From Pseudomonadota bacterium (GTDB lineage Bacteria; Pseudomonadota; Gammaproteobacteria; Steroidobacterales; Steroidobacteraceae), in contig JAJZDX010000011.1 in assembly GCA_021805865.1 (NCBI GenBank), positions 65,082 through 129,081 on the forward strand: 64,000 nt of DNA. Reading direction: 5' to 3'. A program made the translations under genes and the position numbers. Shown one piece after another: positions 3,278 through 40,911 of this stretch (position 1 is its first letter; every line of letters begins with the position of its first letter). Below the pieces are notes generated by a model that saw only the letters and a list, made by a program, of their open reading frames with translations, was not told the DNA's origin and ran no database searches.

Positions 3278-3279
3278 AG

Positions 3280-6277: not shown

Positions 6278-6323
6278 CGACGCGCCTCTGCCACTGCCCA
6301 AGACCGCGAACCCTTAAATAGGT

Positions 6324-23609: not shown

Positions 23610-25307
23610 TTAGCGAGCTTTGTCTACCCCGCCGGCACGCGCCGCGCCCGCTTCGTGGGCGAACCGGTACTCGAGTGCCGCCCGCTCTGGCGTGACCCGG
23701 CCGCTGGCGACATCCCGCGCCACGGCGGTGTCGTCCCGTTCTGCGGGATCCCCGAAGCCGCCCCCGCCGGCGGTATCGAATTCGACGAGGTCGCCTTTCT
23801 TTAGCCGCGTCAATCCGTAGGGATCCGCCGGCCTCCCATTGACCGTGAATCGCGCCAGACGGCCCGGTCTACCACCGAAAAGACCCTCCGGAGCAAGTTG
23901 AAACCGCCCGGACTGAAGCGCCATGCCGATGTTTCCCGGCGGACCCTTGTCGTCATCCGGTACCCAGATCACCTCCCGCCGGCCTTGCGCACCGCGGAAC
24001 TTGCCGGCACCGCCGGAATCCGCAAGCAGCTCGCGCGAGCGGATGACGAGGGGCGTATCGCTTTCAAAAATCTCGACCGGTGTGTTCGCCGCATTGGCGG
24101 GAAACACGAAGCTTCCCGACCCGTCGCCCGCGGCGCCCGCTCCCATGCCGCCGCCGCGGATCACCGCCGCGTGGAACGGATCACCCGAGGAGCGCGTGCC
24201 GAAGAATACCTGCATGGTCGCCGGCGTCCCGCCACTGCCTGCGATCACGCGGTCGGGCAAAACCGGCGCTAAGGCGCGATAGATGATCTCTGTCATGAAG
24301 TGGCCAATCTGCATTCGCGCCACCACTGGTGCCGGATGGCGGCAATTGACCACCGTGCCCTCCGGAGCGATAAGAGTTATCGGCGCCGCCGTGCCCTCGT
24401 TATTCGGCAGCTCCGGGTCGAATATGCTCTTGATTGCCATGTGTACGTAAGCGTACGTGAAGTTGAATACGACATTTCCGCCCCACTCCACCTGGCGCGT
24501 CGTTCCAGACAGATCGACGACTACGTCGCTTCCCTTGATACTCAATTCACAGCGAATCTCGACCGGCGCCTGTCCCTCCATCTGCTCGATGGTACCGCTT
24601 GCGCGATATGTACCATCGGGAATGCGCGCGATGGCTTCGCGCAAGCTCCGCTCGCTCCGTCGGATGATCTCATCCGCAAGCTCATCGAGATCATCCAGGC
24701 GGTAGTCATTGAGAAGCTGCAATATGTGTTGGGCGCACACGTGATTCGCAGCGATCTGCGAACGGATATCCCCTTGAACTTGTTCCGGCGTGCGCACGTT
24801 CGCGCGAATGATGTTGAAGATATCCTCGTTCGGCTGTTCGCCCCCGTACAACCGCACCAGCGGCAGGAACAGTCCCTCTTCGAAGACGTCGTGGCTGTTG
24901 GACGCAACGCGCCCACCCACGTCGGCATGATGCAGGATGCAGGCGGTGAATGCCATGAGCCTGTCGTGCCGGAACACCGGACTCAGAACGCAGACGTCGT
25001 TCAGGTGACCTGCGAGCGCCCACGGATCGTTGGTGATGAAGACGTCTCCCGGGCGGAAGAAGTCCGCGGGCCGGCTGTTGATCAGCTTCTTGATGCCGAG
25101 CGCCATCGCGCCCGATTGCCCGGGACTCGCCAGCGTGCCCTGTGCGAGCTCGCGGCCCCGGCTGTCCGTGAACATGCACGTATAGTCGTGGGAGTCGCGA
25201 AGTACACTTGAGAACGCCGTTCTAACGACTGCTGCATCTGCCTCATCGACGATCGACACGAGGCGGCGCCACAGGATCTCGAGCGTGACGGGGTCGAAAC
25301 GCTGCAC
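23610..25307 (-). CDS. hyuB: Hydantoinase B / oxoprolinase family protein
   Basis: 565-residue HyuB subunit. DPVTLEILWRRLVSIVDEAD at the start, FTDSRGRELAQGTLASPGQSG and FITNDPWALAGHLNDVCV are family hallmarks, and GGGGFGDPAERD lies near the end. With HyuA it forms an ATP-dependent enzyme of the N-methylhydantoinase, 5-oxoprolinase and acetone/acetophenone carboxylase superfamily. The extra small subunits of acetophenone carboxylase are absent, so a cyclic amide or imide hydrolase is more likely than a carboxylase, though not proven. GTG start at 25307 with GGAG 9 bases upstream, 12 bases after hyuA. Its 3' end converges on nnrS with an 18-base gap. Confidence 0.87.
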   Translation of the reverse strand: MQRFDPVTLEILWRRLVSIVDEADAAVVRTAFSSVLRDSHDYTCMFTDSRGRELAQGTLASPGQSGAMALGIKKLINSRPADFFRPGDVFITNDPWALAGHLNDVCVLSPVFRHDRLMAFTACILHHADVGGRVASNSHDVFEEGLFLPLVRLYGGEQPNEDIFNIIRANVRTPEQVQGDIRSQIAANHVCAQHILQLLNDYRLDDLDELADEIIRRSERSLREAIARIPDGTYRASGTIEQMEGQAPVEIRCELSIKGSDVVVDLSGTTRQVEWGGNVVFNFTYAYVHMAIKSIFDPELPNNEGTAAPITLIAPEGTVVNCRHPAPVVARMQIGHFMTEIIYRALAPVLPDRVIAGSGGTPATMQVFFGTRSSGDPFHAAVIRGGGMGAGAAGDGSGSFVFPANAANTPVEIFESDTPLVIRSRELLADSGGAGKFRGAQGRREVIWVPDDDKGPPGNIGMALQSGRFQLAPEGLFGGRPGRLARFTVNGRPADPYGLTRLKKGDLVEFDTAGGGGFGDPAERDDTAVARDVASGRVTPERAALEYRFAHEAGAARAGGVDKAR

Positions 25308-25319: not shown

Positions 25320-27395
25320 CTACGAAAGGTCTATCCACAGGAAACCGTAATCATCGACTGTGACCTGTCCTCTCTCGCCAACCACGACCGTCGACTCGCG
25401 CTCTTCTATGATCGCGGGCCCTGACAGCTGTACGCCCGGTGCAAGGAGATATCGGTCATAGACGATGTGCGGGATCATCTCGCCGGCCAGCGGGCAGAAG
25501 GCTGGTCGCTGACCCTTGATCGCCCTGGCGGCGGTGGCCCCGGCGACCGGCGTTGACTTGGGCAACTCCAGCAGCTTTACCGGCAGGCTGGCCCTTACCC
25601 TGAAGCTCACGAACTCTACGTCGCACTCCGGATAGGTCCGGCCGTAAAGCTTCGCGTACACGGCGTCGAAGCGCTCACGCACTTCCCGTGCCGAGACCGC
25701 CGGGAAATCAGCCGGCGGGAGCTGAACGGTCGTTTCGGACCCCTGACCTATGAAACGCATGTCCACGGCGCGCTCGAAGGTGACGGCGTTTGCGGCGCCG
25801 CTTGACTGCAGTGCCGCCGCGGCTGACTCCTCGAGACCGTGAAAAATCTCCTCCAAGACGGCAAAGTCCGTACCATGCAGCGGCGATTTATGGCTCCTGA
25901 CCACATCGAACGCGCGCAGCGCCGTAAAGAATCCGAGTGCCGACCCGACACCGGCATTGGGCGGCACCAGCAGACGCGGCGCTCCAAGCTTGCGCGCGAG
26001 TCCATACATGTGCACGGGCCCCGCGCCGCCGAACCCCGCGATCGTCACGCGCGGTGCATTACCACCACGTTCCGCAATGTGAGTCTTGGCCGCCGCGGCC
26101 ATGGTCTCGTTGATGAGGTCATGAATCCCCCACGCGGCCTGCAGCAGCGAGATTCCGAGGGGCTCGGCGATCTGCTCCTGGATGCCCTTACGCGCTGCGG
26201 CGGCATCGAGCTTCATGGCGCCGCCGAGGAAATATTCCGCATCGAGGTAACCGAGAAGCAGGTCGGCGTCGGTTACAGTTGGCGCCGTTCCGCCCCGGCC
26301 GTAGCAGATTGGCCCCGGCTCGGCGCCCGCGCTCTGCGGTCCAACCTGCAACGTCCCGACGCGGCTGCGCCGCGCGATGGACCCGCCGCCCGCACCGATC
26401 TCCATCAGGTCGACGACCGGAACCTGTAGCGTCAGCCCGCTGCCTTTCTGAAAGCGCTGCACGCGGCCCACTTCGAACGTCGGCACAACTTCGGCGGCAC
26501 CGTTCTGAATGAGACAAGATTTCGCCGTCGTACCGCCCATGTCGAAGCAGAACATGTCGGGAAGACTGAACAGCCTGCTGAAGTACTGACCGGCGATCAC
26601 CGCCGCGCATGGGCCCGATTCGATGATGCGCACCGGGTAGGCAGCGGCGATGTCCGCGGAGGTGACTCCGCCCGAGGACAGCATGATGAACAGCCGTCCG
26701 CGAAATCCGCGGGCCGCGAGGCGCTGTCTCAGCGAACTCAGATACTTTTCGGTCAGCGGCTTGACGTATGCATTGGCGACGGTGGTGCTTGTCCGCTCGT
26801 ATTCCCGGATCTGGGGCAAGACCTCGTAGGAAATCGAGACCGACACGCCCGGCAACGCCTCGGCGATCAGGCGCTTGATCTCGAACTCGTGTTGCGGATT
26901 CTCAAATGAATTGAGCAGGCAGACCGCAATTGACTCGACCCCATCGGCCTTCAGGCGCGCCAGCGAGGTACCCACACTGCCCGGCTCGAGCGCCTGCAGA
27001 ACGCTGCCGTCGGCACGGACACGTTCGCGAACCTCGAGCCGTCGTTCGCGAGGAACGAGCGGCTCGGGCATCGGAGCGTGTGGATCGTAGGCGGCGTAGC
27101 GAAGCTCGCGACCGAGTTCCAGGACATCGCGGAACCCGCTGGTCGTCAGCAGGCCGGTCCGCGCGCCCTTACGCTCGATGATCGCATTTATGACGAGCGT
27201 CGTACCATGGATGACTTCCTCGAGGTTCGCTATCGTTCCCGGGCGCACGCGCTCGAGAGCGGCGAGGCCATCGAGAATCGCCTCGGTTGGGTCTGCTGGT
27301 GTGGTGAGGCACTTATGCGAGTAAGTCTCACCCGTGCTCTCGTTCAGCAGCACGAAGTCTGTGAATGTACCGCCGACGTCTATTCCTACACGCAT
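25320..27395 (-). CDS. hyuA: Hydantoinase A / oxoprolinase family protein
   Basis: 691-residue HyuA subunit with an ASKHA ATPase fold: N-terminal MRVGIDVGGTFTDFVLL phosphate loop, EVIHGTTLVINAIIERKGA, the central CFDMGGTTAKSCLI and GAGGGSIARRSRVGTLQVGP, and a C-terminal domain ending VTVDDYGFLWIDLS. It activates substrate amide or ketone groups by phosphorylation in this superfamily. First gene of hyuAB, with a perfect 16-base palindrome 36-51 bases upstream. The substrate is unknown; the nearby amidase could act on a ring-opened product (speculative). Confidence 0.88.
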   Translation of the reverse strand: MRVGIDVGGTFTDFVLLNESTGETYSHKCLTTPADPTEAILDGLAALERVRPGTIANLEEVIHGTTLVINAIIERKGARTGLLTTSGFRDVLELGRELRYAAYDPHAPMPEPLVPRERRLEVRERVRADGSVLQALEPGSVGTSLARLKADGVESIAVCLLNSFENPQHEFEIKRLIAEALPGVSVSISYEVLPQIREYERTSTTVANAYVKPLTEKYLSSLRQRLAARGFRGRLFIMLSSGGVTSADIAAAYPVRIIESGPCAAVIAGQYFSRLFSLPDMFCFDMGGTTAKSCLIQNGAAEVVPTFEVGRVQRFQKGSGLTLQVPVVDLMEIGAGGGSIARRSRVGTLQVGPQSAGAEPGPICYGRGGTAPTVTDADLLLGYLDAEYFLGGAMKLDAAAARKGIQEQIAEPLGISLLQAAWGIHDLINETMAAAAKTHIAERGGNAPRVTIAGFGGAGPVHMYGLARKLGAPRLLVPPNAGVGSALGFFTALRAFDVVRSHKSPLHGTDFAVLEEIFHGLEESAAAALQSSGAANAVTFERAVDMRFIGQGSETTVQLPPADFPAVSAREVRERFDAVYAKLYGRTYPECDVEFVSFRVRASLPVKLLELPKSTPVAGATAARAIKGQRPAFCPLAGEMIPHIVYDRYLLAPGVQLSGPAIIEERESTVVVGERGQVTVDDYGFLWIDLS

Positions 27396-27610: not shown

Positions 27611-29146
27611 ATGATGGACCTGTCGCACTGGATCGAGCGGAACGCCCGATTTATGCCGGATCGCACCGCGATCCGCTTCGAGGGCGAAGACCTCAGCTAT
27701 GCGCAGCTCGCACAGGAAATCGATTTGACCGCCCGGTATCTTGCGGACCTCGGCGTGGGGGAGGGCTCGGTCGTTGCCTACCTCGGCCTTAACAGCCCGT
27801 TGCTGCTGAAGCTCTTCTTCGCCTGTGCCCAACTTGGCAGCCTCCTGGCCCCGATCAGCTGGCGCCTGGCCGCACAGGAGCTTTGCCGTGTCCTCGACAA
27901 TTGTTCTCCTCAGGCGCTGGTGACCGAGCCGCCCTTCCTCGCAACACTTCGCACGATGGCCCCGACGCAAACGACGGCCTGCATCGTCACCGGCGGCGAG
28001 CCGCCGGCCGGGTGGCTCGTCTGGAACCCGCCGGAACGGGCTCGAGGCGCGCTGCCTTCCGAACTGCGGGTGGGGCGACCGGATGCACCGATAATCCTCT
28101 GTTACACGTCGGGAACGACCGGAATACCGAAGGGCGTCGTGCTCACGCAGGATGCGGTTGAATGTAACGCCGCCAACAGCGCGCACATGCACGATCTGAC
28201 AAGCCACGATCGCGTACTGACGACACTGCCGATGTTTCACGTCGGTGGGCTGAACATCCAGACGCTGCCCGCACTGCGGGCCGGCGCCTCCGTGATCATG
28301 CATCCACGCTTCAGCGCCGAGCATGCGCTGACCGCGATTGAGAGGGAACGCATCACGCTCACCGTGCTCGTCCCGGCGCAGCTTGCCGCGATTCTCGATC
28401 TGCCGAACTGCAGCCCGTCAAAACTGCTTTCTTTACGCATGATAACGAGCGGATCAACCATCGTCTCCGAGCAGTTCGCCAAACGCATCAACTCGCTGGG
28501 AATTCCGCTGGCACAAGTGTACGGCTCGACCGAGACCGCCCCGATCGCCGCCTACCAGCGTCGGGAGGATGCGACGTTGCGCCCCGGCTCTGCCGGCGCG
28601 CCCGCGCTGCACTGCGAGATCCGCATAGTCGATGAAAATCATTGCGACCTTCCCGTCGGCGTCGATGGCGAGATCCTGGTCAGAGGGCGCAACGTCATGA
28701 GTGGCTACTGGAACCAGCCCGCGCAAACCGCTGCCGCCTTCTGCGATGGCTGGTTCTGCTCCGGAGACATCGGACACCTGGATTCAGACGGATTCCTGTA
28801 CGTCGTTTCACGAAAGAAAGACATGATCATCACCGGCGGGGAGAACGTTTATCCTGAGGAAGTCGAAACCCTGCTGCTCGACTGCCCGTCGGTCCTGGAG
28901 GTCTGCGTCGTCGGCAAACCGGACGAGAAGCTCGGTGAGATGGTCGTTGCCGCGGTAGTGCTCCGCGACGGCGCCGACCTGAGCATCGACGCCGTGAAGC
29001 TGCTGCTCGAGAACCGGTTGGCGCGCTACAAGCACCCCCGGGAATTGCATTTTCTCCGGCACATGCCACGCAATGCGCTCGGCAAGTTGCACCGCGCCGA
29101 TGTGCGTGCTGCGATTTTGAACGCCACCGCCGCCGAGGGTGCGTGA
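27611..29146 (+). CDS. AMP-forming acyl-CoA synthetase (substrate unknown)
   Basis: Class I adenylate-forming ligase of 511 residues. Phosphate loop YTSGTTGIPKGVVLT near residue 160, YGSTETAPIAAYQ near 305, hinge GWFCSGDIGHLDSDG and C-terminal catalytic lysine in MPRNALGKLHR. It makes the acyl-CoA that enters the operon. FadD-like rather than benzoate-ligase-like, so the acid may be aliphatic or alicyclic (weak inference). First of nine plus-strand genes; its stop overlaps the next start. A second ATG follows directly at 27614. Confidence 0.86.
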   Translation: MMDLSHWIERNARFMPDRTAIRFEGEDLSYAQLAQEIDLTARYLADLGVGEGSVVAYLGLNSPLLLKLFFACAQLGSLLAPISWRLAAQELCRVLDNCSPQALVTEPPFLATLRTMAPTQTTACIVTGGEPPAGWLVWNPPERARGALPSELRVGRPDAPIILCYTSGTTGIPKGVVLTQDAVECNAANSAHMHDLTSHDRVLTTLPMFHVGGLNIQTLPALRAGASVIMHPRFSAEHALTAIERERITLTVLVPAQLAAILDLPNCSPSKLLSLRMITSGSTIVSEQFAKRINSLGIPLAQVYGSTETAPIAAYQRREDATLRPGSAGAPALHCEIRIVDENHCDLPVGVDGEILVRGRNVMSGYWNQPAQTAAAFCDGWFCSGDIGHLDSDGFLYVVSRKKDMIITGGENVYPEEVETLLLDCPSVLEVCVVGKPDEKLGEMVVAAVVLRDGADLSIDAVKLLLENRLARYKHPRELHFLRHMPRNALGKLHRADVRAAILNATAAEGA

Positions 29147-30279
29147 TGGATCTCATCCTCAGCGACGAGCAGCGCCAGGTTCGCGACATGTTCGCTCGCT
29201 TGTGCGATGAAACGATCGCCCCGCAGGCCGCGGACCTCGACTCGGCAGGCACTTTTCCGACGGACCTGTTCGCGCTGCTCGCGGACGTGGGATTGTTCGG
29301 AATGCGCTATCCGGAAGCGGATGGCGGCGCCGGCATGCGCCTGACCGAATTCTGCCTGGCTCTCCAGGAAGTCGCCCGCGGCTCGCTGTCGCTCGCCGGC
29401 GCTGCCGCGATGCAGTCCCTGATGGGCACGAAATTCCTTCAGCTCCTCGGCACCGAGGACATCAAGGCGCGCCTGTTCCGCCCAGCGTTGCAAGGCAGGA
29501 AAATCGGCGCAATCTGCATGACCGAACCCAATGCAGGCAGCGACCTCGGCGCAATCGCCACGCGCGCCGAGCGCACCGCCGGCGGCTACCTCCTCACGGG
29601 TCAGAAGACGTGGGTCACTTCGGCAACGGTCGCAGATTTCTTCACCGTATTCGCCCGCGCCGGGGCCGAGTCGAAGCTGACGATCTTCCTCGTCGAGCGC
29701 GATTCCGTCGGTTTGACGATTGGCCGGAACATCCAAAAGATGGGCGTGTGGGCGCTTCCGACCGCGGAATTGAGCCTCGATCAGTGCTTCGTCCCCGACT
29801 CGCACCGGCTGTCGCGAGCCGAAGGCGACGGCGAAGAGCACCTGCGCAAGACGTTGGCGGAAATCCGCGTCATCACCGGCGCGATGGCCGTTGGCGTCGC
29901 CCGTGCCGCCCTTGAAGCCTCGATTCGCTACGCGTCCGAACGCAGGCAGTTCGGCAAGCCGATCGGCGCGTACCAGGCGATCCAGCTTAAGCTGGCGGAC
30001 ATGGCGACGGGACTGGCCGCCGCCGAACTGCTCGTGTATGAGGCGGCGCGCCGCTACGACGCGGACTTGCCACATCACCGCGAAGCGGCCATGGCCAAGC
30101 TGCTCGCGAGCGAAACAGCCGCGACCGTATGCGATCTGGCAGCCCGTATCTATGCCTCCTATGGCTATGCGATGGAATATCCGATACAACGCTACTTGCG
30201 CGACGTGCGGTTCACCTTGATTGGCGGCGGTACCAGCGAGATACTTAGGCTGGTCATCGCACGGGAGCTCACGCGATGA
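29146..30279 (+). CDS. Acyl-CoA dehydrogenase
   Basis: FAD-dependent acyl-CoA dehydrogenase of 377 residues. N-terminal helical domain (LSDEQRQVRDMFARLCDE), flavin region ICMTEPNAGSDLGAIATRAE, GYLLTGQKTWVTSA, and C-terminal ERRQFGKPIGAYQAIQLKLADM and IQRYLRDVRF. It introduces a double bond alpha-beta to the CoA ester, with electrons passing to ETF. No conserved glutamate at the isovaleryl-type position could be assigned by eye. The stop of the ligase and this ATG share one base (TGATG); a GTG 3 bases earlier is also possible. Confidence 0.88.
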   Translation: MDLILSDEQRQVRDMFARLCDETIAPQAADLDSAGTFPTDLFALLADVGLFGMRYPEADGGAGMRLTEFCLALQEVARGSLSLAGAAAMQSLMGTKFLQLLGTEDIKARLFRPALQGRKIGAICMTEPNAGSDLGAIATRAERTAGGYLLTGQKTWVTSATVADFFTVFARAGAESKLTIFLVERDSVGLTIGRNIQKMGVWALPTAELSLDQCFVPDSHRLSRAEGDGEEHLRKTLAEIRVITGAMAVGVARAALEASIRYASERRQFGKPIGAYQAIQLKLADMATGLAAAELLVYEAARRYDADLPHHREAAMAKLLASETAATVCDLAARIYASYGYAMEYPIQRYLRDVRFTLIGGGTSEILRLVIARELTR

Positions 30280-30674
30280 ATCAAAAGCGGCCGATCCGTA
30301 TCGTCCTAGGCAAACCCGGTCTCGACGGACACGACCATGGCGCCAAAGTCGTGGCGCGTGCACTGATGGATGCCGGTTTCGAGGTCATTTACACGGGGTT
30401 GCGTCAGACGCCGACGTCGATCGCAAAAATCGCTCGCGACAACGACGCTGACGTCGTTGCGCTGTCCAGCATGGCGGGTTCACACCTGGAATTTTGCCGC
30501 AAGCTGAAACCCATGCTGGAGCAATCCGGCCTCGGCAATCGATTGTGGATCATTGGGGGCAACCTTCCCAGAACGGATCATGCGAACCTGCGCGCGCTCG
30601 GATTCAAGGGCGTGTTTCCATCGAGTTCACGGCTGGCCGATATAGTGGCGTTCGTCGAGGCAAATGTCCCATGA
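30276..30674 (+). CDS. Cobalamin-binding small subunit of an acyl-CoA mutase
   Basis: 132-residue free-standing B12-binding domain. D17-x-H19-x-x-G22 in GLDGHDHGAKV is the base-off His-on cobalamin motif, followed by SSMAGSH and IIGGNLP. It pairs with the large subunit encoded next, as in 2-hydroxyisobutyryl-CoA, isobutyryl-CoA and archaeal methylmalonyl-CoA mutases. It comes before the large subunit, overlapping both neighbours by 4 bases, so all three are translationally coupled. No MeaB/IcmF-type G-protein chaperone is seen in the window. Confidence 0.9.
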   Translation: MNQKRPIRIVLGKPGLDGHDHGAKVVARALMDAGFEVIYTGLRQTPTSIAKIARDNDADVVALSSMAGSHLEFCRKLKPMLEQSGLGNRLWIIGGNLPRTDHANLRALGFKGVFPSSSRLADIVAFVEANVP

Positions 30675-32278
30675 GCGATTCAAGCAGGCCCAAGCCGGTC
30701 GTAAATGAATCGGGAATCGAGGTCCAGGCGCTCTATGGCCCGGCCGATGTCGAGCGAACCGGCGGCTATTCGCTGGTCGGACAGCCGGGCGAATATCCGT
30801 TCACCCGCGGCATCCACCCGCTGATGTACCGCAAGCAACCGTGGACGATGCGCCAATATACGGGATTTGGCAACGCTGCGGACACAAACAGGCGCTTCCG
30901 CTATCTGATTGAAAATGGTCAGACCGGCCTCAACGTCGCGTTCGATCTGCCGACTCAGTGCGGCCTTGACTCCGACGACTCCGCGGCCGAAGGGGAAGTC
31001 GGACGGGTAGGAATGGCCGTCGACACGTTGCACGACTTCGAGGTTGCCTTCGCCGGGATCGATCTTGATAAGATCACGGTTTCCCTGACCATCAACGGAG
31101 CCGCGCCGCAACTCATCGCCATGTACCTGGCGATGGCCGAGGGGCTGGGTTACGACATCAAAAAGCTGCGCGGCACCGCGCAGAACGACATTCTGAAGGA
31201 ATTCATCGGCCGGGGAACATGGATATATCCGGTCAAACCCTCAATTCGCCTGGTCGGCGACACGATCGAATACTGTGCGCATCATGCACCCAAGTACAGC
31301 CCGGTATCAGTCTGTGGATATCACATTCGCGAATCGGGCGCTGACCCCGCTCAGGAAATGGCTTACGCATTCTGCATCGCCCGCGCCTACGCCGACGAGG
31401 TCGTCAGACGCGGACTGTCGATCGACGAGTTCGCCGGACGTCTGTCGTTTAACTTCAACATCTTCGGCAATATTTTCGAGCAGGTCGCCAAGTTCCGCGC
31501 CGGCCGCGGCCTGTGGGCCAGCATCATGCGTGACGAATATCACGCCACCAAACCCGGATCCATGTGGATGCGGATGATAGCGGGCGGCGGCGGCGGCGGC
31601 CTGACGCTCGAGCAGCCCGAAGTGAACATCGTCCGTGGCGCCTACTACGCTCTTATCAGCGCGCTATCGGGGGCGCAGACCATGGCGCTGTGTTGTTATG
31701 ACGAGGCGTACACGATACCGTCGGAATATGCACAGCGAATCTCCCTGCGGACAATGCAGCTGCTGGTCGAAGAGATGGGACTGACCGAAACCGTCGACCC
31801 GCTCGCAGGCTCTTGGTACGTCGAGACCCTGACCAACCAGATGCGGGACCGCATCGGTGCGATCATTGCCGAAACCGACGCCAACGGCGGAATCGTCCAG
31901 CAGATCGCCTCCGGGGAGATTCAGGCGCGCATATCCGCCCAGGCCTACAGGATGGTCCGGGCCAAGGAGTCGGGTGAGTTCCGAAAGATCGGTGTCAACT
32001 GCTACCGCCAGGAAGGTGAGCAGTACGCGGAAGTCGAACTGCATCCCTACCGCGAGGCCGACGCGCAGGCGCAGCTCGCGAATCTGAACGCGGTGCGGGC
32101 GCGGCGCGACGCACCGCGCGTGACTCGCACACTGGCCGCGCTGAAGACCGCGGCAGTGCGCGGCGAGAACGTGATGCCCGCGATGCTGGACGCCGTGAAG
32201 GCCTATGCCACCGTCGGCGAGATCACCCGAGAGCTCGCGCAGGCGTTCGGGCGATACCAAGAGCCGGTGAGGTTCTGA
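30671..32278 (+). CDS. Adenosylcobalamin-dependent acyl-CoA mutase, large subunit (methylmalonyl-CoA mutase family)
   Basis: Catalytic TIM-barrel subunit of 535 residues, without its own B12 domain. It shows RGIHPLMYRKQPWTMRQYTG, GLNVAFDLPTQCGLDSD, GTAQNDILKEFIGRGTWIYP, CGYHIRESGA and VDPLAGSWYVE. Y63 and R181 align with the tyrosine and arginine that hold the carboxyl group in methylmalonyl-CoA mutase, rather than the isobutyryl- or hydroxyisobutyryl-CoA variants. The following loop, however, is a six-glycine run (AGGGGGGLTLEQPE) unlike the classical enzyme, so the substrate may be a bulkier 2-substituted malonyl-CoA. Placement inside an operon with an acyl-CoA ligase and a Mo hydroxylase is unusual. 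Confidence 0.86.
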   Translation: MSDSSRPKPVVNESGIEVQALYGPADVERTGGYSLVGQPGEYPFTRGIHPLMYRKQPWTMRQYTGFGNAADTNRRFRYLIENGQTGLNVAFDLPTQCGLDSDDSAAEGEVGRVGMAVDTLHDFEVAFAGIDLDKITVSLTINGAAPQLIAMYLAMAEGLGYDIKKLRGTAQNDILKEFIGRGTWIYPVKPSIRLVGDTIEYCAHHAPKYSPVSVCGYHIRESGADPAQEMAYAFCIARAYADEVVRRGLSIDEFAGRLSFNFNIFGNIFEQVAKFRAGRGLWASIMRDEYHATKPGSMWMRMIAGGGGGGLTLEQPEVNIVRGAYYALISALSGAQTMALCCYDEAYTIPSEYAQRISLRTMQLLVEEMGLTETVDPLAGSWYVETLTNQMRDRIGAIIAETDANGGIVQQIASGEIQARISAQAYRMVRAKESGEFRKIGVNCYRQEGEQYAEVELHPYREADAQAQLANLNAVRARRDAPRVTRTLAALKTAAVRGENVMPAMLDAVKAYATVGEITRELAQAFGRYQEPVRF

Positions 32279-32280
32279 CC

Positions 32281-33147
32281 GTGGCTGAACTCCGCAATTA
32301 CGCCGCACCGCGCTCGCTTGCCGAGGCGCTGCAGGTCCTCGCCTCGGGACCCGCCACCGTTCTCGCCGGCGGCACCGACCTGATGCCCCAGAGCCGATCG
32401 GCAAGGGTGCGCTTCGCCCCGACGCTGCTCAACATCCAGGGCGTAGCCGAACTGCGCGGCGTACGCCGGCGTGACGGAGCCGTGGAGATCGGCGCGCTGA
32501 CCACCATCGCCACGTTGCGTGACGACCCCGCGGTGCGCAACGGCGCGCCCGTGCTCTGGCAGGCTTGTGACCACTTTGCGAGCGACCAGATCCGCAACGC
32601 CGCTACCATCGGCGGCAACATCTGCAACGCTTCGCCCGCCGGCGACACTCTGGTCCCGCTGCTCGTGCTCGACGCATCCGTGGTCCTGGCGAGCGGCGGA
32701 GCGGCAGGGATCCACGAGCGGCGCCTGCCGCTGTCCGAATTCCTCACCGGCCCCGGTCGCACCGCACGCCGACCCGAAGAGCTTCTGGTCGAGGTGCGCA
32801 TACCCGTCCCCGCATCAGGCTGGGTGGATCGATACGTCAAGTTCGGAACTCGCCCGGCACTCGACATTTCCACGATCGCGCTCGCGCTCGGCGGCACTCT
32901 GTTCGACGGGCGGCTCGAGAATGCCCGCCTCGCGCTCGGCGCCGTAGCACCAACGGCCATTCGAGCGCATGACGCCGAGCGGGTGCTGGCGGAAGGGCCG
33001 CTCGATCGAGCCCGCATCGATCGGGTGGTCGATGCTGCGGACGCGGCGATTCACCCGATCAGCGACGTTCGCGCATCCGACTGGTATCGGCGCGAACTGG
33101 TGCACAACCTCCTGCGGAGGATATTGACCGATGTCTGCCCTAATTGA
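32281..33147 (+). CDS. Xanthine dehydrogenase-family FAD subunit
   Basis: Medium subunit (288 residues) of a three-subunit molybdenum hydroxylase. FAD motifs are VLAGGTDLMPQSRS near residue 29 and RNAATIGGNICNASPAGDTLVPL near 105. The approximately 40-residue [4Fe-4S] insertion that marks 4-hydroxybenzoyl-CoA reductase HcrB is absent, which argues for a hydroxylase/dehydrogenase rather than a dehydroxylating reductase. GTG start 2 bases after the mutase stop, with GAGG upstream; overlaps the next gene by 17 bases. Confidence 0.88.
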   Translation: MAELRNYAAPRSLAEALQVLASGPATVLAGGTDLMPQSRSARVRFAPTLLNIQGVAELRGVRRRDGAVEIGALTTIATLRDDPAVRNGAPVLWQACDHFASDQIRNAATIGGNICNASPAGDTLVPLLVLDASVVLASGGAAGIHERRLPLSEFLTGPGRTARRPEELLVEVRIPVPASGWVDRYVKFGTRPALDISTIALALGGTLFDGRLENARLALGAVAPTAIRAHDAERVLAEGPLDRARIDRVVDAADAAIHPISDVRASDWYRRELVHNLLRRILTDVCPN

Positions 33148-33613
33148 AATTGAATTCCGTCTCAACGGCATCAGCCGGCGCGTGACCGTTCCCCTACAAA
33201 TGAGCGCACTGGAAATGCTCCGCGATATGATGGGACAGCATGGCACCAAGTATGGCTGCGGCGAAGGCGAATGCGGCGCCTGCACGATCAGTGTCGACCA
33301 CCGCACCGTCAACTCCTGCCTTAAGTTTGCGGTCGATTGCAACGGCCGTGACATACAGACCATCGAGGGTTTGGCGGCCACCCCGTTCGGCGAAAATCTC
33401 AACCGGGCCATGGTCGAGCATGGCGCTGTCCAATGCGGTTTCTGCACGCCGGGCATCATGATGCAGGCACAACAGGTGCTCACGGACAATCCCGACGCGA
33501 GTCCCGCACAGATCCAGCGCGGCCTCGAGGGCAATCTTTGCCGCTGCACCGGCTACCGGAAGATTCTCGACGCGATCGAAGCAGTGGCTCATCCGTCCCC
33601 AGCCGGCGACTAA
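33131..33613 (+). CDS. Xanthine dehydrogenase-family [2Fe-2S] subunit
   Basis: Small subunit (160 residues) with two [2Fe-2S] clusters: plant-ferredoxin type in GCGEGECGACTISV with a fourth cysteine in VNSCLKF, and the helical-domain cluster in CGFCTPGIMM and NLCRCTGYRKI. It carries electrons from the Mo site to FAD. Strong ribosome-binding site GGAGG ahead of ATG 33131. Confidence 0.94.
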   Translation: MSALIEIEFRLNGISRRVTVPLQMSALEMLRDMMGQHGTKYGCGEGECGACTISVDHRTVNSCLKFAVDCNGRDIQTIEGLAATPFGENLNRAMVEHGAVQCGFCTPGIMMQAQQVLTDNPDASPAQIQRGLEGNLCRCTGYRKILDAIEAVAHPSPAGD

Positions 33614-33623
33614 GGAGCACGAA

Positions 33624-36017
33624 GTGGCACCGACACCGCGCGAAGAAGCATTTGCTGACTCGCTGATCGGGCGACGCGTTCCGAAGCTCGACGCACCCGA
33701 CAAGGCCAGCGGCCGTACACGCTACCTGCACGACATCAACGTCCCCGGTCAGTTGCACGCCAAGATCCTCCGCTCGACGGAAGTGCATGCCCGCATCGTC
33801 TCGATCGACGTTGAGGCCGCCCGCCGCGTGCCCGGCGTTCATGCCGTGATCACTGCCGCCGACGTGCCGTGGCAACGCCCGATCGGCATCACCAAGGACC
33901 ACATGCCCCTTAAGGCGGACGTCGTTCGCAGCCGCCGCGATGAGATTGCCGCGGTAGCGGCCGATACGGTCGAGGCCGCGGAGGAGGCGCTGCGCCTGAT
34001 TCGAGTCGCCTACGAGCCGCTGCCGATCCTCACGAACAGTGCGCAGGCCCTCGGGCCGGGGGCGCCGCTGCTGCACGGGGAGGACCTACGTGTTCCCGGC
34101 CGCAACGGCGCACTCGAAGTCGTTCACAAGGCGTGCAGCGACAACGTCTCGATGGCTTACGAGTATGGCCACGGGGACGTTACCCAAGGCGAGCGGGAAT
34201 CGGCCGTCGTCGTTGAGGACGTCTTTTGGCTGCACTACGTGACCCATTGCTGCATGGGTGTCTCCGGCGTCATCGCCGAGTTCGATGCTTCCGGCAACCT
34301 GCTGCTGTATTCGAACACGCAGGTGCCGTTTCTGCATAAACGGGAGTTTGCCGAACTGCTGGGGATCGACCCGGGTCGCATTCGCATCATTCAGCCGCCC
34401 ATCGGTGGCGGCTTTGGTTCCAAGCTGGATATTTACCCGTTCGAGCCGATTGCGATCTTTCTTGCGAAAATGACGCGCCGACCGGTGAAACTGCTGTTTA
34501 CGCGCGAGGAGGAGTTCATCGCCTCTCCGACAAGACAACCGGTTCTGCTCAAGCTGCGGTCCGGTTGCGACCGTGAAGGTCGGCTCACCTTTCGCGCCGT
34601 CGACACAATTCACGACAACGGCGCCTATACATCCTGGGGCGCAACCACCCCGTTCGTGATGATGCAGACTATTTCCTCACTGTATCGTGTGCCACACTGC
34701 CATTACCGGACGCGGGCGGTATATACCAATAACCCTTATGCCGGGTCTTTCCGCGGCTACGGCAATCTTCAGGCGACCTTCGCCGTCGAAGCGCACATGG
34801 ACAAGCTCGCCGATGCGCTTGGCATGGACGCGCTCGAATTCCGACTGCTGAACGCACAGGATCCGGGTGAGTCGACGCCTCAAGGGATGCATTTCCGCTC
34901 GTGCGGCTTCAAGGAGTGCCTCGGCACGGCTGCAGAGCGCAGCGACTATGAGGCAAAGCGTCGGGGTAACCTCGAGCACTGGAACGACGGCAATCCGATC
35001 AAGCGCGGCATCGGAATGGCCTCCATGCTTCATGTCGGCGGCGGTGCCAAGATGTATCCGTCGGACGGGTGCGGCACGATCATAAAGCTCGATGACTTTG
35101 CGAAAGTCACGTTGATCACCGGCGCATCCGAAATTGGTCAGGGCTCCGAGACGGTTCTGGCGCTGCTCGTCTGCGAGGAGCTCGGGCTGCCAATCGACTC
35201 CGTGACCGTAGTGAACAACGATACGGCGATCACGCCATGGGATGTCGGCGTACATGCGTCCCGCACGACGTTCATCGGCGGCAACTCGGCGATTGGAGCG
35301 GCGCGCAAGGCGAAGCGCAAGATTCTCGAGACTGCCGCCCCAAAGGCCGGGCGCACGCCGGACGATCTCGACCTGCGCGGCGGACACATCGTCCTCAAGG
35401 CGACCGGTGAGCGCATCCAGGAGATCGGCAGGTTCCTGCGTTCGCTGCACTTCTCGGAGAAGGCGGAGCTCGTGATGACGACATACTATTACGAGCCACC
35501 GAGCGTTCACCTGGATCGAAACTACAAAGGCGACGTTTCGGCCGCTTATGCGTGGGCCACGCAAGTCGCTGAGGTCGAGGTCGATACCGACACGGGAATC
35601 GTTCGGCTGCTGAAGATCACGGCGGCGCACGACGTCGGACGCGTGCTTAACCGCCTCGGTATAGAAGGGCAAATCGAGGGCGGGATCGTGATGGGACAAG
35701 GCTATGCATTGTCCGAAGATCTATTGGTCGAGGACGGTATGATCAGGAATCCGAACTTCCGCGACTACAAGCTGGTCACGGCGCCGGAGATACCGGAGAT
35801 GGATGTCTCGTTCATCGAGACCATGGATGGCGAAGGTCCGCAGGGAGCCAAGGGCGTCGGCGAAGCACCTGCGATCTGCATAGCCGCTGCGGTCGCAAAC
35901 GCCATTTACAACGCGACCGGTACCCGAATCTATGCGCTGCCCTTCACTCCCGAAAAGGTCTACCGCGCGCTGCGGGGCGCGAATATGCCACCGAAGTGGC
36001 CCGAGGACGCCGCTTGA
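33624..36017 (+). CDS. Xanthine dehydrogenase-family molybdopterin subunit
   Basis: Large catalytic subunit (797 residues) binding molybdopterin cytosine dinucleotide. It has [20 protein letters not shown] at the start, [48 protein letters not shown] and, at the end, [14 protein letters not shown], which carries the catalytic glutamate. It hydroxylates a carbon next to a heteroatom or an activated carbon using water. Relatives include 4-hydroxybenzoyl-CoA reductase, furoyl-CoA and nicotinate dehydrogenases; which reaction applies here is open. GTG start with AAGGAG 6-7 bases upstream. An xdhC-type maturation gene nearby at 41 kb is broken. Confidence 0.9.
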
Positions 36018-37210
36018 CCACGCGACCGGTCGTTCTCAGCCTGGAGCAGGCTCTGTCGCTTCCCTCGGCGACGCTGCGTTTCGCGCAACTCGGCTGGCGG
36101 GTGATTCGCATCGAATCAACCCCGTCCGGCGACACCCTGCCCGGCGACCCCAACCGCTATATCGGTGAGCGGGTCGCGGATGACGATCGACGCAGCTATT
36201 TCATTGCGCCGAACGTCGGCAAGGAAGCCATCGCGCTGAACCTGAAGGACGAGCGCGGCAGAGCGATCCTGCGGAAGTTGATCCGGACACTCGACGTCGA
36301 TGTCTTCTGCTGCAACACGCTGCCGTCGCGCTACCGCTCGCTGGGCATCGACTATGCGACACTGAGCGCCGAGCGGCCCGGTCTGATCTGGGCGGCGATC
36401 TCTGCCCTGGGCCCGAGCTGGCCCGACACCCCGGGCTACGATCCGGTCATTCAGGCGATGTGCGGCTACATGGCCCTGACCGGCGAGCACGGTGGACCGC
36501 CCACCCTGATGGGCGTTCCTGTGGTTGATCTGAAGGCCGGAGACGAGCTCTATGCCAATGTGCTGCTTGCTCTGCTGGAACGCGCCACCACCGGCAAGGG
36601 GCAGGAAATCAACGTATCGATGATGCAGGCTGCGGCATCGTGGCTGTTGACCTTCCTGCCGTTGCTGGACTTCGATGCCGCTCCCTCGGATCTGACCCGC
36701 TCGGGGAATGCACATCGGAAGTTCATTCCCACGAACGTCTATCCGGCCCGCGACGGCTTCGTCTACCTCGCCATCGGGTCCGATCTGCAGTGGTGCCGTT
36801 TGACGGCAATACCGGGGTTCGAGTCGGTGGCCAGCCCCGCTCGAGCCACCAACGAGGGCCGGTACCGCGAGCGCGGCGCAATCTATCGCGAACTGGCTGC
36901 GTTGACCGCATCGCGGTCGGCGGACGAACTGCTGGTGAGGTTCCGTGAGGCGACCATTCCCTCTACGAAAATCCTGGAACTTGGAGCCGTGCGCGACCTC
37001 CCGCCGCTACGCGAGCACCTGACGACGACGACTCTTCCCGACGGTCGAACCGTTCGCATGCAGCCGCTGCCGGTCGAGCGTCCGGAGGCGAGCCGCCACC
37101 TTCCATTCCCACCAAAATACGCCGCCGACACCCGCCGTCTTCTCGCTGAAGCCGGTTGCCAGCCGCAGGAGATCGATGCCTGGACGCGGGACGGGATCAT
37201 AGCCGTCTGA
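36014..37210 (+). CDS. CaiB/BaiF CoA-transferase family protein
   Basis: Class III CoA-transferase or racemase of about 398 residues: [58 protein letters not shown] with the aspartate position of the active site further on in [14 protein letters not shown]. It may move CoA between substrate and product acids or epimerise an alpha-methyl group. TTG 36014 overlaps the previous stop as TTGA and has GAGGA at the right distance; an in-frame GTG at 35996 is the alternative. Together with the CoA ligase this gives the pathway two ways to make CoA esters. Confidence 0.82.
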
Positions 37211-37263
37211 GAGGTCTGCGGCTCAGACCATGCTCCGCAAGCAGACGGGTTTGGAGAAGTACA

Positions 37264-38475
37264 ATGCAGTTGCGCGCCTCAATTCCGTATCGAGCTTATT
37301 GGTCGACACCGTTCGCACGGTGGCAAGGCGCCTTCGCGCACCTGCATAGCCTGCGTTTTGCCGCACACGTGGCTCGAGCCGAGCTCGCACGCCGCAACAG
37401 CGATCCGAGCATCATCGATTTCGGCGTCCTCGGCATGACACGCCCCGAGCGCAATTGCTTCTACGGCCTGCCGTGGCTGATGGGCCTCATTGGCGCCGGT
37501 CACGTTGCCGGTCCGACGGTCTCTCAAGCCTGCGCAACCAGCATCCGTGCTCTCTCGGTGGCCTCGCGCGAGGTGTCCACCGGTGAGGCAAAGGTCGCCC
37601 TCGCGATCGCCTGCGACCGCACTTCCAATGGCCCGCATATCTACCACCCGAACCCTGGGGGCATGGGCGGCACGGGCGAAGCCGAGGACTTCATTCTTGA
37701 GAACATGGCGTGCGACCCCCTCGGCGGGCATTCCATGGTGCAAACCGCCGAAAACGTTGCGCGTCGCTTCGGGATCGGTACGGCGCGCCAGCACGAACTC
37801 GTCCTGCGGCGCGAAGCGCAATATCGCGAGGCGCTCGCGGACGACAAGCGCTTCCAGAAAGGATACATGACGATTCCGTTTCCGGTGCCCGATGCGCGCT
37901 TCAGGAAGACGCAGATGACACTTGATGGCGACGAAGGAGTGCGGTTTTCCACGCCCGAGGGGCTCGCGGCGTTGAAGCCGGTCAGTGAGGGCGGAACGGT
38001 GACGTTCGGAGGCCAGACTCATCCGGCGGACGGCAGCGCTGCCATCATGGTCACGAGCCCCGACCGCGCCCGTGAGATCTCCGCCGACCCGGCGGTGTCC
38101 ATCGAGATCCTTGGTTTCGGCCAGTCGCGCGCCGAGCTCGCCTACATGCCGGAGGCGCCGATTGCAGCCGCCGAACGCGCACTGGCGTTCGCTGGCGTCG
38201 GCATCCGCGAACTCGCCGCGATCAACACTCACAACCCGTTCATCCTCAATGATCTCGCCTTTGCGCAGGCAACCGGTGCCGATCCGAACACCATGAACGC
38301 CCGTGGCTGCTCCTTCGTCTACGGCCACCCCAATGCCCCAACCGGCCTTCGCTCGACGATCGAACTCATCGAACAGCTCGTCGAGCGCGGGGGCGGTCTC
38401 GGCCTGTTCACAGGGTGCGCCGCGGGTGATTCTGCGATGGCGATCGTCATCCGTGTAGACGGTCCACGCCGCTGA
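37264..38475 (+). CDS. Thiolase-family protein
   Basis: 403-residue thiolase fold. The nucleophilic cysteine is in VSQACATSIRALSVA (about residue 94), the histidine in CSFVYGHPNAPTG and the second cysteine region in GLFTGCAAGDSAMA. It probably cleaves a 3-oxoacyl-CoA with CoA at the end of the pathway. The N-terminus is longer and the active-site surroundings differ from classical acetyl-CoA acetyltransferases, suggesting a special substrate. ATG 37264 follows GGAG; the frame is open from 37156. Last gene of the operon, converging with the HAD-ECH fusion (gap 9 bases). Confidence 0.85.
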   Translation: MQLRASIPYRAYWSTPFARWQGAFAHLHSLRFAAHVARAELARRNSDPSIIDFGVLGMTRPERNCFYGLPWLMGLIGAGHVAGPTVSQACATSIRALSVASREVSTGEAKVALAIACDRTSNGPHIYHPNPGGMGGTGEAEDFILENMACDPLGGHSMVQTAENVARRFGIGTARQHELVLRREAQYREALADDKRFQKGYMTIPFPVPDARFRKTQMTLDGDEGVRFSTPEGLAALKPVSEGGTVTFGGQTHPADGSAAIMVTSPDRAREISADPAVSIEILGFGQSRAELAYMPEAPIAAAERALAFAGVGIRELAAINTHNPFILNDLAFAQATGADPNTMNARGCSFVYGHPNAPTGLRSTIELIEQLVERGGGLGLFTGCAAGDSAMAIVIRVDGPRR

Positions 38476-38484
38476 GCGCGTCTC

Positions 38485-40506
38485 TCAACCGGTGCTGGCG
38501 AAATCCGGTGTCCGCCGCTCACTGAAGGCGGCGATTCCCTCGCGCGCAGCGGCGGTACACGCGCTCGCTCCGAATGCGGCGTAGCCAACTTCGAGGGCTT
38601 CGGTCCATGACGTCGCCGCGGCCGCCGCCACTATCGCTTCGTCGACGATTGCGCGGACCGCTACGCTGAGCCTCGCGCCGTCAGCGCCGACGGCCGGGAT
38701 TGACGGCGGCGCGCAGATGCGCACGGGGCCGTCGACCGGCTCCGGCAGCCGCCCGACAAGGGCATGCACTCGAGCCGCAGCGCTCGGGATGAGATCAGCC
38801 GAGTCCTCGCAAAGCTCCAGAACGCCATGATGAGCCGCGGTTTCCGCATCGATGCGCTCAGCCTGCTGCAGCATCCGGTGGAAGAGCTCCGCCGCTTGCG
38901 GCCAGCGCCGGTAGGGCACGGCGATGCCGCCGATGCCCGGTACGATGCCGAGTCCGATCTCCGGGAACTGCAACTTCGCCTGCCGGGTTGCGACGATTTC
39001 GTGGCAACGAAACGCGAGCTCGAGTCCGCCGCCCAGGGCGAGGCCGTTCAGCGCGGCCACCACCGGCTTCTCGGCACAATCGATCGCGATCAGCAGCCGC
39101 GAGCACGCGCGCGCATACTGCCGCGAGGCGGTGGCGTCGCCGAGCATCGCCGGGAAGCGGCCGATGTCTGCGCCCGCGCAGAAGGCGCGCGGTCCATAAC
39201 CGGTGAGGACGAAGCCGACGGTAGCCGCGTCGGTCATCCGGACGCGCAGAACCGCCAGGATTTCATCGTTGAGCTCGTCATGCAGGGCGTTCAGGGCTTC
39301 CGGACGGCGAATGGTGATCACGCAGACTCCGTCGACATCATCGATAAGTACGTCGCGCCTGAAATCGACGTAATCGGCGAGTGGCCTCGTGCGCCCGGGC
39401 ATGCCGGACCGTTCCTCGCCCAAACGCGCAAGGACCCGGTCCACTTCCCGTTCGCCGGCGAGTCGCATGAGATCGAGCGGACCTCGCTTCAGGCCGAACG
39501 CAAGGCGGCAACCGAGCTCGAGATCCGCCGGCCGCCCAATGCCGCGGTCGAGAATATCCACCGTTTGAGAATACAGAATGCCGAGCAGGCGATCGCGAAT
39601 TCTGCGGCGCACGCCGTCGGTGATCGCGGACGGCACCGCGCCGCGGGCCGGCACCCTCCAGCGTTCGACGGATGAGAAAATACGTGCAGGCCGGTAGTGC
39701 GCTCCCTCCTCCTCCGCCTGCAGCGTATTCGTCTCGACGATGATCCGATTGCCGTTAGCGAGGTTCAGCACAAAAAACGGTCCGGCGTGCACCAGATCGC
39801 AGGCGACCGCATCGATCTGCGCCGCATCCGCACAATCGAGCAGAGTCGCGGCTTCGTTGCACCAATTGTCAAAAACACGATCCAACATGAAGCAAACGGC
39901 GTCGCCTGTCACGAGCGGCACCTTGCCGGTGGCGGCAAAGAGCCAGCGAAACCAGTCGACCACATGGTCCTCGACCCGTTCCCAATCTATGACCTCGACG
40001 ATTGGATTTTGAAAGGCGGGCGCGAAGAAATGGGTGACAGTCGCCCGCTGCGGGTGCGCGAGATGGCCGAACAGCCTGCTTGCCGGCAGAGAGCTGGTAT
40101 TCGAGGAGATGAACGCCGACGGGGCGATCACCGCCTCGATTTGCGAGAAGATCCGCTGCTTGACCGCGAGATCCTCCGTGGCTGCCTCGATCACCCAATC
40201 GCAACCAGCGAGCGCACCGTAATCCGTCGTCGGTGAAAAGCCGGCGCGAACCGACGCGGCGCGTTCGGCAGATATCTTCTTGCGCTGCACGCCCTTTTCG
40301 ACGTACCCGTACACCCGCTCCTGGGCACGCGCCAGCGCAGCCGGGGCGATGTCGACCAGCAGCAGCTTGAGCCCTGGGATTTCGCTTGCAAGGTAATAGG
40401 CGATGTCCGGCCCGATGGTGCCGGCGCCGATGACTCCGACTGAGCGCGGAAATGACCGCGATGAGCGGATGAGAGCGGGGTTGGCGGGAAGATCTCTCAG
40501 GCGCAA
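38485..40506 (-). CDS. Fused 3-hydroxyacyl-CoA dehydrogenase / enoyl-CoA hydratase
   Basis: Bifunctional protein of about 673 residues. The N-terminal half is a 3-hydroxyacyl-CoA dehydrogenase (SVGVIGAGTIGPDIAYYLA, ISSNTSSLPASRL, THFFAPAFQNPIVEVI). The C-terminal half, from about residue 430, is a crotonase (ITIRRPEALNALHDELNDEI, GYGPRAFCAGADI, AALNGLALGGGLELAFRC). The order is the reverse of FadB. With the acyl-CoA dehydrogenase and thiolase it completes a beta-oxidation cycle. The frame is open to 40788, but the region upstream of about 40600 overlaps an operator. TTG 40506 with GGAG 8 bases upstream is the best start I see, though a rarer codon. Confidence 0.84.
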   Translation of the reverse strand: MRLRDLPANPALIRSSRSFPRSVGVIGAGTIGPDIAYYLASEIPGLKLLLVDIAPAALARAQERVYGYVEKGVQRKKISAERAASVRAGFSPTTDYGALAGCDWVIEAATEDLAVKQRIFSQIEAVIAPSAFISSNTSSLPASRLFGHLAHPQRATVTHFFAPAFQNPIVEVIDWERVEDHVVDWFRWLFAATGKVPLVTGDAVCFMLDRVFDNWCNEAATLLDCADAAQIDAVACDLVHAGPFFVLNLANGNRIIVETNTLQAEEEGAHYRPARIFSSVERWRVPARGAVPSAITDGVRRRIRDRLLGILYSQTVDILDRGIGRPADLELGCRLAFGLKRGPLDLMRLAGEREVDRVLARLGEERSGMPGRTRPLADYVDFRRDVLIDDVDGVCVITIRRPEALNALHDELNDEILAVLRVRMTDAATVGFVLTGYGPRAFCAGADIGRFPAMLGDATASRQYARACSRLLIAIDCAEKPVVAALNGLALGGGLELAFRCHEIVATRQAKLQFPEIGLGIVPGIGGIAVPYRRWPQAAELFHRMLQQAERIDAETAAHHGVLELCEDSADLIPSAAARVHALVGRLPEPVDGPVRICAPPSIPAVGADGARLSVAVRAIVDEAIVAAAAATSWTEALEVGYAAFGASACTAAAREGIAAFSERRTPDFASTG

Positions 40507-40605
40507 GTCGGTCTCCGTGATCCCGTTTTTGAAAATTGCCTTGCGAGGCCGCAGAGATCGCCCCGAGTCGGCGACGCTCCAGGTCTCGCGCGATCTTGAC
40601 AGCAC

Positions 40606-40619
40606 TACTGTGCACAGTA
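40606..40619. promoter_or_regulatory. Palindrome upstream of the HAD-ECH fusion gene
   Basis: TACTGTGCACAGTA, a perfect 14-base dyad about 100 bases upstream of the chosen start. It matches the centre of the hyuA palindrome in 12 of 14 positions. A minus-strand TATACT at 40621-40616 could be the -10 box, so binding would cover the promoter. Confidence 0.58.
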
Positions 40620-40911
40620 TACAGGATTTCCGGAGAGTACCGACTTCTCCTGGGGTTTCGCCTCCATCCCCGGGGGCCATTCCGGGCGCCGATCGGCAAT
40701 CGAAGAGGTCAAGCGTTTGCCCTTGCAACCGATACGCGCCCTCGCCGGCAACCGCCGCGTCGCGATCGCGTTCGGCCAGCCGGGACACGAAGCCGACGAC
40801 GGCGCTCTACGGCTTCCGCAGCCGGCGCAGCCGCTGCACGGCGCCCAATTGACGCGCCTGCGCGGCCACCCCGAGCGGCTCGCGCACCACGATGCCGGCC
40901 TGCTGAATCTC

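Follow-up and report, generated by a model that had tools for sequence, protein, structure and literature searches.

We have analysed a window of 64,000 nucleotides from a genome of the Steroidobacteraceae (Gammaproteobacteria; assembly GCA_021805865.1, contig JAJZDX010000011.1, positions 65,082-129,081), which very probably contains an iaa gene cluster for the oxygen-independent degradation of indole-3-acetate. The assignment rests on the gene-by-gene match to the cluster of Aromatoleum evansii KB740 (locus L050), on a GGG motif in the acyl-CoA dehydrogenase (CoA, coenzyme A), on conserved residues of a B12-dependent mutase and on the co-occurrence of molybdenum (Mo) hydroxylase, mutase and CaiB-type CoA-transferase genes in related loci. 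An earlier note on this DNA had presented these genes as a candidate undescribed pathway, a claim to be given up if homologues of the whole operon were already tied to a known substrate. Such homologues exist, in the cluster treated in PMC8360864 and in L050, and their substrate is indole-3-acetate. The unusual mixture of enzymes is thus already explained, since the known indoleacetate pathway matches the gene set. The pathway itself is already known, and what is new is its presence in this lineage together with a variant arrangement of putative function. The supposed new pathway is struck off and the cluster gains a testable substrate.

The nine plus-strand genes that the earlier note had described as overlapping or tightly spaced were all recovered, with the same limits and domains (Table 1). 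They form a tight unit at 27611-38475 in which adjacent genes either overlap or leave gaps of 2, 10 or 53 bp (the CaiB start codon at 36014 is our choice). A convergent gene on the minus strand codes, as had been claimed, for a fusion of a 3-hydroxyacyl-CoA dehydrogenase and an enoyl-CoA hydratase (HAD-ECH); its true start may be nearer to 40506, because the first domain begins only at residue 117. The note was right about the gene set from 27611 onward and overlooked, upstream of it, a divergent pair of hydantoinase-type genes and a gene coding for a VOC protein. The hydantoinase pair is the main clue to the substrate.

A scan of the genome collection with an alignment of four mutase sequences gave 408 confirmed relatives, the best 80 of which were taken, the A. 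evansii locus among them. In L050 all genes lie on one strand in the order regulator, thiolase, ligase, HyuA, HyuB, dehydrogenase, mutase small subunit, mutase large subunit, FAD, iron-sulphur (FeS) and molybdenum cofactor (MoCo) subunits of the Mo hydroxylase, and CaiB; an open reading frame downstream weakly resembles ABC-transporter substrate-binding proteins. All eleven enzyme genes of this locus recur in the window, nine of them 51-75% identical to their counterparts: ligase, IaaF-type dehydrogenase, mutase, Mo hydroxylase, CaiB and thiolase stand together, and HyuA and HyuB genes, of putative lactamase function, adjoin them. The order from dehydrogenase to CaiB (acad-mutS-mutL-coxM-coxS-coxL-caiB) is kept. 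However, the thiolase leads in L050 and comes after CaiB in the window, where the hydantoinase pair is divergent and belongs to another clade, and where the VOC gene, an NnrS gene and the convergent HAD-ECH fusion are nearby. This fusion had no match within the L050 stretch and was matched over at least 400 residues in 17 of the 80 loci. The letters fixed by the legend to Figure 1 of PMC8360864 (IaaB, F, GH, L and M) land, in order, on fitting L050 genes; letters A, C, E, I, J and K were assigned by gene order only.

Both A. evansii KB740 and A. aromaticum EbN1 are described as indoleacetate degraders, with 2-aminobenzoyl-CoA as product and a locus iaaABCDEFGHIJKLMPQR (PMC9613470). The account of the cluster in PMC8360864 names IaaB as indoleacetate-CoA ligase, IaaL as CoA-transferase, IaaGH as two-subunit B12 mutase and IaaF as decarboxylating acyl-CoA dehydrogenase. 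In that scheme the mutase links phenylsuccinyl-CoA to benzylmalonyl-CoA, which is then oxidatively decarboxylated by IaaF, and this interconversion takes the place of the clearing of a quaternary or alpha-branch obstacle for which the earlier note had invoked the mutase. The IaaF of A. aromaticum is active on benzylmalonyl-CoA, used as a proxy substrate, and enantiospecific, and a methylmalonyl-CoA epimerase acts on the same compound; oxygen was the sole acceptor used in vitro and the natural electron acceptor is reported there as unknown (PMC8360864). The same source gives, as the signature of the IaaF subclass, a GGG that replaces YEG close to the C-terminus, and a benzylmalonyl-CoA dehydrogenase without the usual catalytic Glu is described in PMC11659651. 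In the window dehydrogenase GGG replaces YEG at residues 361-363, and GGG was found in all 82 rows of our comparison that hold a dehydrogenase. A 2016 paper (Schuhle) is said to have characterised IaaB and IaaL and to have predicted iaa operons in other organisms.

The mutase has the domain MM_CoA_mutase and a separate B12-binding subunit with the DxHxxG motif, as in B12-dependent acyl-CoA mutases. Its best match in the PDB is the large subunit of 2-hydroxyisobutyryl-CoA mutase (HCM; 4r3u, 472 bits), against 371 bits for methylmalonyl-CoA mutase (MCM). HCM likewise has its small B12 subunit as a separate protein, but Tyr63 and Arg181 of the window mutase are replaced in it by Ile and Gln, and the run of glycines by HCQTAAA. 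With MCM the window mutase shares the four aligned residues of the substrate site (Tyr, Gln, Arg and His). In MCM the Tyr and the Arg hold the free carboxylate of the substrate, so that their conservation fits a substrate with a free carboxylate. On the other hand, the small subunit is separate in the window, glycines stand in place of the HCQTSG loop, and the identity to MCM-type rows is 39-43%.

The earlier note had correctly placed Tyr63, Arg181 and six glycines (305-310) in the large subunit; the hexaglycine loop is present, although it is not peculiar to this protein. Among the 87 loci L024-L110, 83 have a mutase at least 70% identical to that of the window, rows that are partly non-independent (L024/L031, L025/L086 and L026/L097 are the same stretches twice, and L107 and L109 overlap). 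Tyr63, Gln171, Arg181 and His218 are kept in all 83, as is a glycine-rich stretch after Met-Ile-Ala, mostly MIA[AG]GGGGG and two residues shorter in one row. At this position THCQTSG was found in 14 of 14 MCM-type rows (L010-L023, from a search of the order, classed by length and identity). The glycine loop is therefore a family feature that marks the iaa mutase, and it may make room for the aryl group. With the dehydrogenase GGG, already published, it provides two signatures for anaerobic auxin degradation. The other mutase of the window's genome, a frame of 1169 residues that is IcmF-like by size, has Phe and Gln at the Tyr and Arg positions. A plasmid origin is without support, since the mutase had no match at 1e-150 in the plasmid collection.

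Two further stretches (L028:8545-12489 and L029:6485-10362) carry another type of two-subunit mutase, 44-45% identical to that of the window, with the Tyr, Gln, Arg and His kept and a third kind of loop, FGVVCGGSSL. These mutases adjoin an enoyl-CoA hydratase and a CaiB transferase, no Mo-hydroxylase match was found in the two stretches, and the type is possibly more novel than the indoleacetate cluster. A mutase with 48% identity and the loop TFSGSCGSTL is found at L027:2687-8776, near an acyl-CoA ligase match and a distant small subunit (35%).

The 80 loci come mostly from metagenome bins labelled Beta-, Gamma- and Alphaproteobacteria, with one labelled Deltaproteobacteria. The occurrence is patchy: of the 296 genomes of the order that were searched, 4 have a mutase with at least 70% identity, as do 2 of the 22 from the genus, the window's own included. 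The dehydrogenase is present in 79 of the 80 loci, L039 beginning inside the cluster. The association of mutase and Mo hydroxylase to which the earlier note had drawn attention holds well beyond this genome, as the Mo large subunit was found in 62 of the 63 loci that show both mutase and CaiB. Altogether 73 loci have this subunit, in two groups that are 49-56% (15 loci, partial in L033) and 62-98% (58 loci) identical to that of the window. The mutase in the low-identity group is still 72-82% identical, which in sequence terms suggests two exchangeable hydroxylase modules among iaa clusters. The window's Mo large subunit stays under the NCBIfam equivalog cut-offs for xanthine dehydrogenase and 4-hydroxybenzoyl-CoA reductase (TIGR03194 573/995 bits, NF043082 563/780 bits), its best score being to 4-hydroxybenzoyl-CoA reductase alpha (TIGR03194). 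Paramagnetospirillum caucaseum SO-1 has two different iaa-type clusters (L093 and L110), whose Mo large subunits share 70% and 53% identity with that of the window, and one contig of a gammaproteobacterial bin (JAJFLA010000003.1; L107 and L109) has two mirror-image iaa clusters, which may be a true inverted duplication or an error of assembly.

In the pathway that we propose, the ligase would make indoleacetyl-CoA (step 1) and the three-subunit Mo enzyme would hydroxylate the indole ring with water to 2-oxoindoleacetyl-CoA (step 2). The divergent hydantoinase pair would then open the lactam with ATP, giving (2-aminophenyl)succinyl-CoA (step 3), the CaiB enzyme would shift the CoA to the other carboxyl (step 4) and the B12 mutase would move the CO-SCoA group to yield (2-aminobenzyl)malonyl-CoA (step 5). 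Oxidative decarboxylation by the dehydrogenase with the GGG motif would produce 2-aminocinnamoyl-CoA (step 6), to be converted by the HAD-ECH fusion and the thiolase into 2-aminobenzoyl-CoA and acetyl-CoA (step 7) before ring reduction, perhaps via the benzoyl-CoA reductase genes at 1-6301 (step 8). Steps 1, 4, 5 and 6 are named in the account of PMC8360864, and a passing remark in a second paper mentions the step 2 intermediate and the step 3 lactamase; we infer the places of the Mo enzyme in step 2, the fusion in step 7 and the ring reductase in step 8. The outline drawn in the earlier note (CoA activation, hydroxylation with water, B12 rearrangement and beta-oxidation, all free of oxygen) survives in this scheme, while its branched or alicyclic acid substrate does not. 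By analogy, the mutase would take a hydrogen from the carbon adjoining the free carboxylate, and the CO-SCoA group would move away from the aryl-bearing carbon, where a benzylic radical would be left. The mechanism of MCM is the model for this hydrogen abstraction and CO-SCoA shift, and the scheme would explain the conserved Tyr and Arg.

The hydantoinase pair lies immediately upstream of the operon and divergent from it. Eight of the 80 loci have a pair of this type, also divergent (HyuA 70-99% and HyuB 69-98% identical to those of the window), 54 have the Aromatoleum type, 18 have none in view, and in none of the 80 were both types seen. In a midpoint-rooted tree of the window gene and 58 homologues, each type makes up a clade of its own, with support 1.0 for that of the window and 0.78 for that of Aromatoleum; beside each clade branches another gene that the window's genome carries elsewhere, not the same one for both.

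Several observations weigh against the indoleacetate assignment. The window HyuAB and the pair of Aromatoleum are not orthologues (28-36% identity, separate clades), so that step 3 rests on gene position; we count the pair as a variant, because what defines the step is its reaction, whether or not the enzymes are orthologues. The best match of this genome to the L050 HyuA is a gene on contig C18 (441 bits vs 418 for the window gene, both 37% identical), which branches beside the Aromatoleum clade. This gene and the HyuB next to it make up the C18 pair (L119:3998-7903), which lies with a CaiB-type gene, a transporter, a TetR-type regulator and short-chain dehydrogenases; no iaa genes were found beside it, and it may carry out step 3, although we do not favour this. 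Furthermore, the amidase of the window is 14 bits short of the indoleacetamide hydrolase cut-off and was unmatched in the 87 loci, though most of these end short of the distance at which the amidase lies here. NirS was not found in the window's genome. Finally, the locus with the Deltaproteobacteria label (L106) has mutase (71%), dehydrogenase and CaiB, the first and last 2.3 kb apart, and no Mo-subunit match; its first oxidation may use another enzyme or be encoded elsewhere.

The different hydantoinase pair could also mean that an iaa-derived cluster has as its substrate a related acid of the indole or lactam kind (a substituted indoleacetate, for instance), with HyuAB reflecting a shifted substrate or opening the lactam of the free acid. 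This is in line with the best score of HyuA, against caprolactamase subunit alpha (530 bits, below the cut-off of 1000), and with the company that pair and cluster keep in eight of the 80 loci. However, the dehydrogenase motif, the mutase residues and the Mo subunits closely resemble their counterparts in Aromatoleum, no second pair of the Aromatoleum type was seen in the eight loci, and the more distant C18 pair leaves the choice of lactamase open, so we consider a related acid very unlikely. A so far undescribed pathway for a branched or alicyclic acid, in which the mutase clears a quaternary or alpha-branch block, would fit the gene set in its general order of reactions, yet we rejected it on the gene-by-gene match to the published cluster of A. 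evansii; the IaaF motif and the conserved Tyr and Arg, which favour a substrate with a free carboxylate, leave it extremely improbable. These same two residues would be expected in an ordinary MCM of propionate metabolism that came to lie in the operon by chance. Against such an origin, to which we give a negligible probability, the dehydrogenase stands beside the mutase in 79 of the 80 loci, and a plain MCM identity was rejected on the glycine loop, on HCM as the best solved relative and on the score to the MCM equivalog NF006944 (496 bits, cut-off 876), a comparison that disfavours a large subunit standing alone because the model covers the one-chain enzyme. Anaerobic steroid degradation, an initial conjecture, was given up in favour of the iaa cluster of PMC8360864.

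Within the indoleacetate assignment, the genes around the hydantoinase pair could belong to a second form of the iaa pathway, with a non-orthologous hydantoinase swap, an added epimerase and the NnrS membrane protein acting as, or feeding, the acceptor of IaaF. We rate this form as a whole as unlikely; its parts differ, the other HyuAB clade being supported at sequence level, the epimerase plausible and the NnrS role a speculation from gene neighbourhood. This arrangement (type 2) was not met in our literature searches, none of which was aimed directly at it. The VOC gene is related to methylmalonyl-CoA epimerase without being its equivalog, and we infer a candidate (2-aminobenzyl)malonyl-CoA epimerase, a role that is plausible because IaaF is enantiospecific and methylmalonyl-CoA epimerase acts on benzylmalonyl-CoA (PMC8360864). 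VOC genes were found in 8 of the 80 loci by single-pass search (with L107 and L109 overlapping on one contig), after an iterative profile search that drifted onto long overlapping frames (131 matches) was discarded; the NnrS count was the same in both. In L045, L055, L061 and L086 the VOC gene lies between ligase and dehydrogenase.

A single copy of NnrS was found in the window's genome, and 1-4 copies in each of 14 other genomes, six of them picked because NnrS is in the locus. It is present in 10 of the 80 iaa loci, straight after CaiB in L045, L054, L061 and L092 and beside the VOC gene, as in the window, in L031 and L032. This is 12% of the loci vs about 1% expected by chance, a hand estimate in which related loci are not independent. 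NnrS accompanies the window type of HyuAB in 3 of 4 loci vs 4 of 45 for the Aromatoleum type (Fisher p 0.007; loci with less than 1.2 kb beyond CaiB left out, among them L054, which has NnrS), and VOC in 3 of 8 vs 2 of 54 (Fisher p 0.013), both on few loci and ignoring relatedness. Locus L090 has the window-type HyuAB with neither NnrS nor VOC in view. NnrS may have to do with the electron acceptor of IaaF, or its presence may reflect no more than nitric oxide stress. The HyuAB clade and the VOC linkage appear as modest variants; together with NnrS they are candidates for two points left open in print, how the right enantiomer is provided and how IaaF is re-oxidised.

Table 1. Position and evidence of the features of the window; functions are predicted, and percentages are identities to L050.
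Feature	Position	Strand	Evidence
Acyl-CoA ligase, IaaB-type indoleacetate-CoA ligase	27611..29146	+	AMP-binding domains; 51%
Acyl-CoA dehydrogenase, IaaF-type (2-aminobenzyl)malonyl-CoA dehydrogenase (decarboxylating)	29143..30279	+	72%; GGG motif
Mutase small subunit, IaaG type	30276..30674	+	B12-binding domain PF02310, DxHxxG motif; 68%
Mutase large subunit, IaaH type, phenylsuccinyl-/benzylmalonyl-CoA mutase	30671..32278	+	PF01642 612 bits; 75%
Mo-hydroxylase FAD subunit (IaaI by order)	32281..33147	+	PF00941/PF03450; 57%
Mo-hydroxylase 2Fe-2S subunit (IaaJ by order)	33131..33613	+	PF01799/PF00111; 65%
Mo-hydroxylase MoCo subunit (IaaK by order)	33624..36017	+	MoCoBD_1/2; 74%
CaiB/BaiF CoA-transferase, IaaL-type phenylsuccinyl-CoA transferase	36014..37210	+	PF02515; 64%
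Thiolase (IaaA by order in L050)	37264..38475	+	Thiolase_N/C; 64%
3-Hydroxyacyl-CoA dehydrogenase/enoyl-CoA hydratase fusion, convergent	38485..40788 (longest frame)	-	3HCDH_N + ECH_1
Hydantoinase A-type subunit (type 2), proposed opener of the 2-oxoindole lactam	25320..27395	-	PF01968; 36% to HyuA
Hydantoinase B-type subunit (type 2)	23610..25307	-	PF02538; 28% to HyuB
NnrS-family protein	22359..23591 (longest frame, overlaps VOC gene)	+	PF05940 280 bits
VOC protein, methylmalonyl-CoA-epimerase-like	21847..22407 (longest frame)	+	TIGR03081 69 bits, below cut-off 115
GntR/FCD regulator, possible cluster regulator	20925..21650	+	PF00392 + PF07729; 32% to the regulator heading the L050 cluster
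Amidase, indoleacetamide-hydrolase-like, possible indoleacetate supply (context)	17030..18460	-	NF005688 518 bits, cut-off 532
Benzoyl-CoA reductase A (cut by window end), B, C, then dch, oah, had	1..6301	-	likely downstream ring reduction
Phenylacetate-CoA ligase and phenylglyoxylate dehydrogenase subunits	51959-58282		over NCBIfam cut-offs
MoaA	61256-62515		

The amidase, the benzoyl-CoA reductase cluster and MoaA were counted for the indoleacetate assignment as context. In the reductase cluster TIGR02260, TIGR02263, TIGR03189, TIGR03200 and TIGR03201 are over their cut-offs, and TIGR02259 (subunit A, partial) reaches 376/578 bits. An FeS/membrane anchor pair (42209-43789), considered as acceptor of IaaF, was found in none of the 87 loci, which reach at most 10 kb past the mutase and are mostly too short for it. 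Its DsrO/QrcC-like iron-sulphur subunit and its anchor adjoin a fluoroacetyl-CoA-thioesterase-like gene (42209-44162), with no catalytic subunit seen beside them; 30 kb from the pair, at 9888-12686, lies a gene for a catalytic Mo subunit of the dimethyl sulfoxide reductase type.

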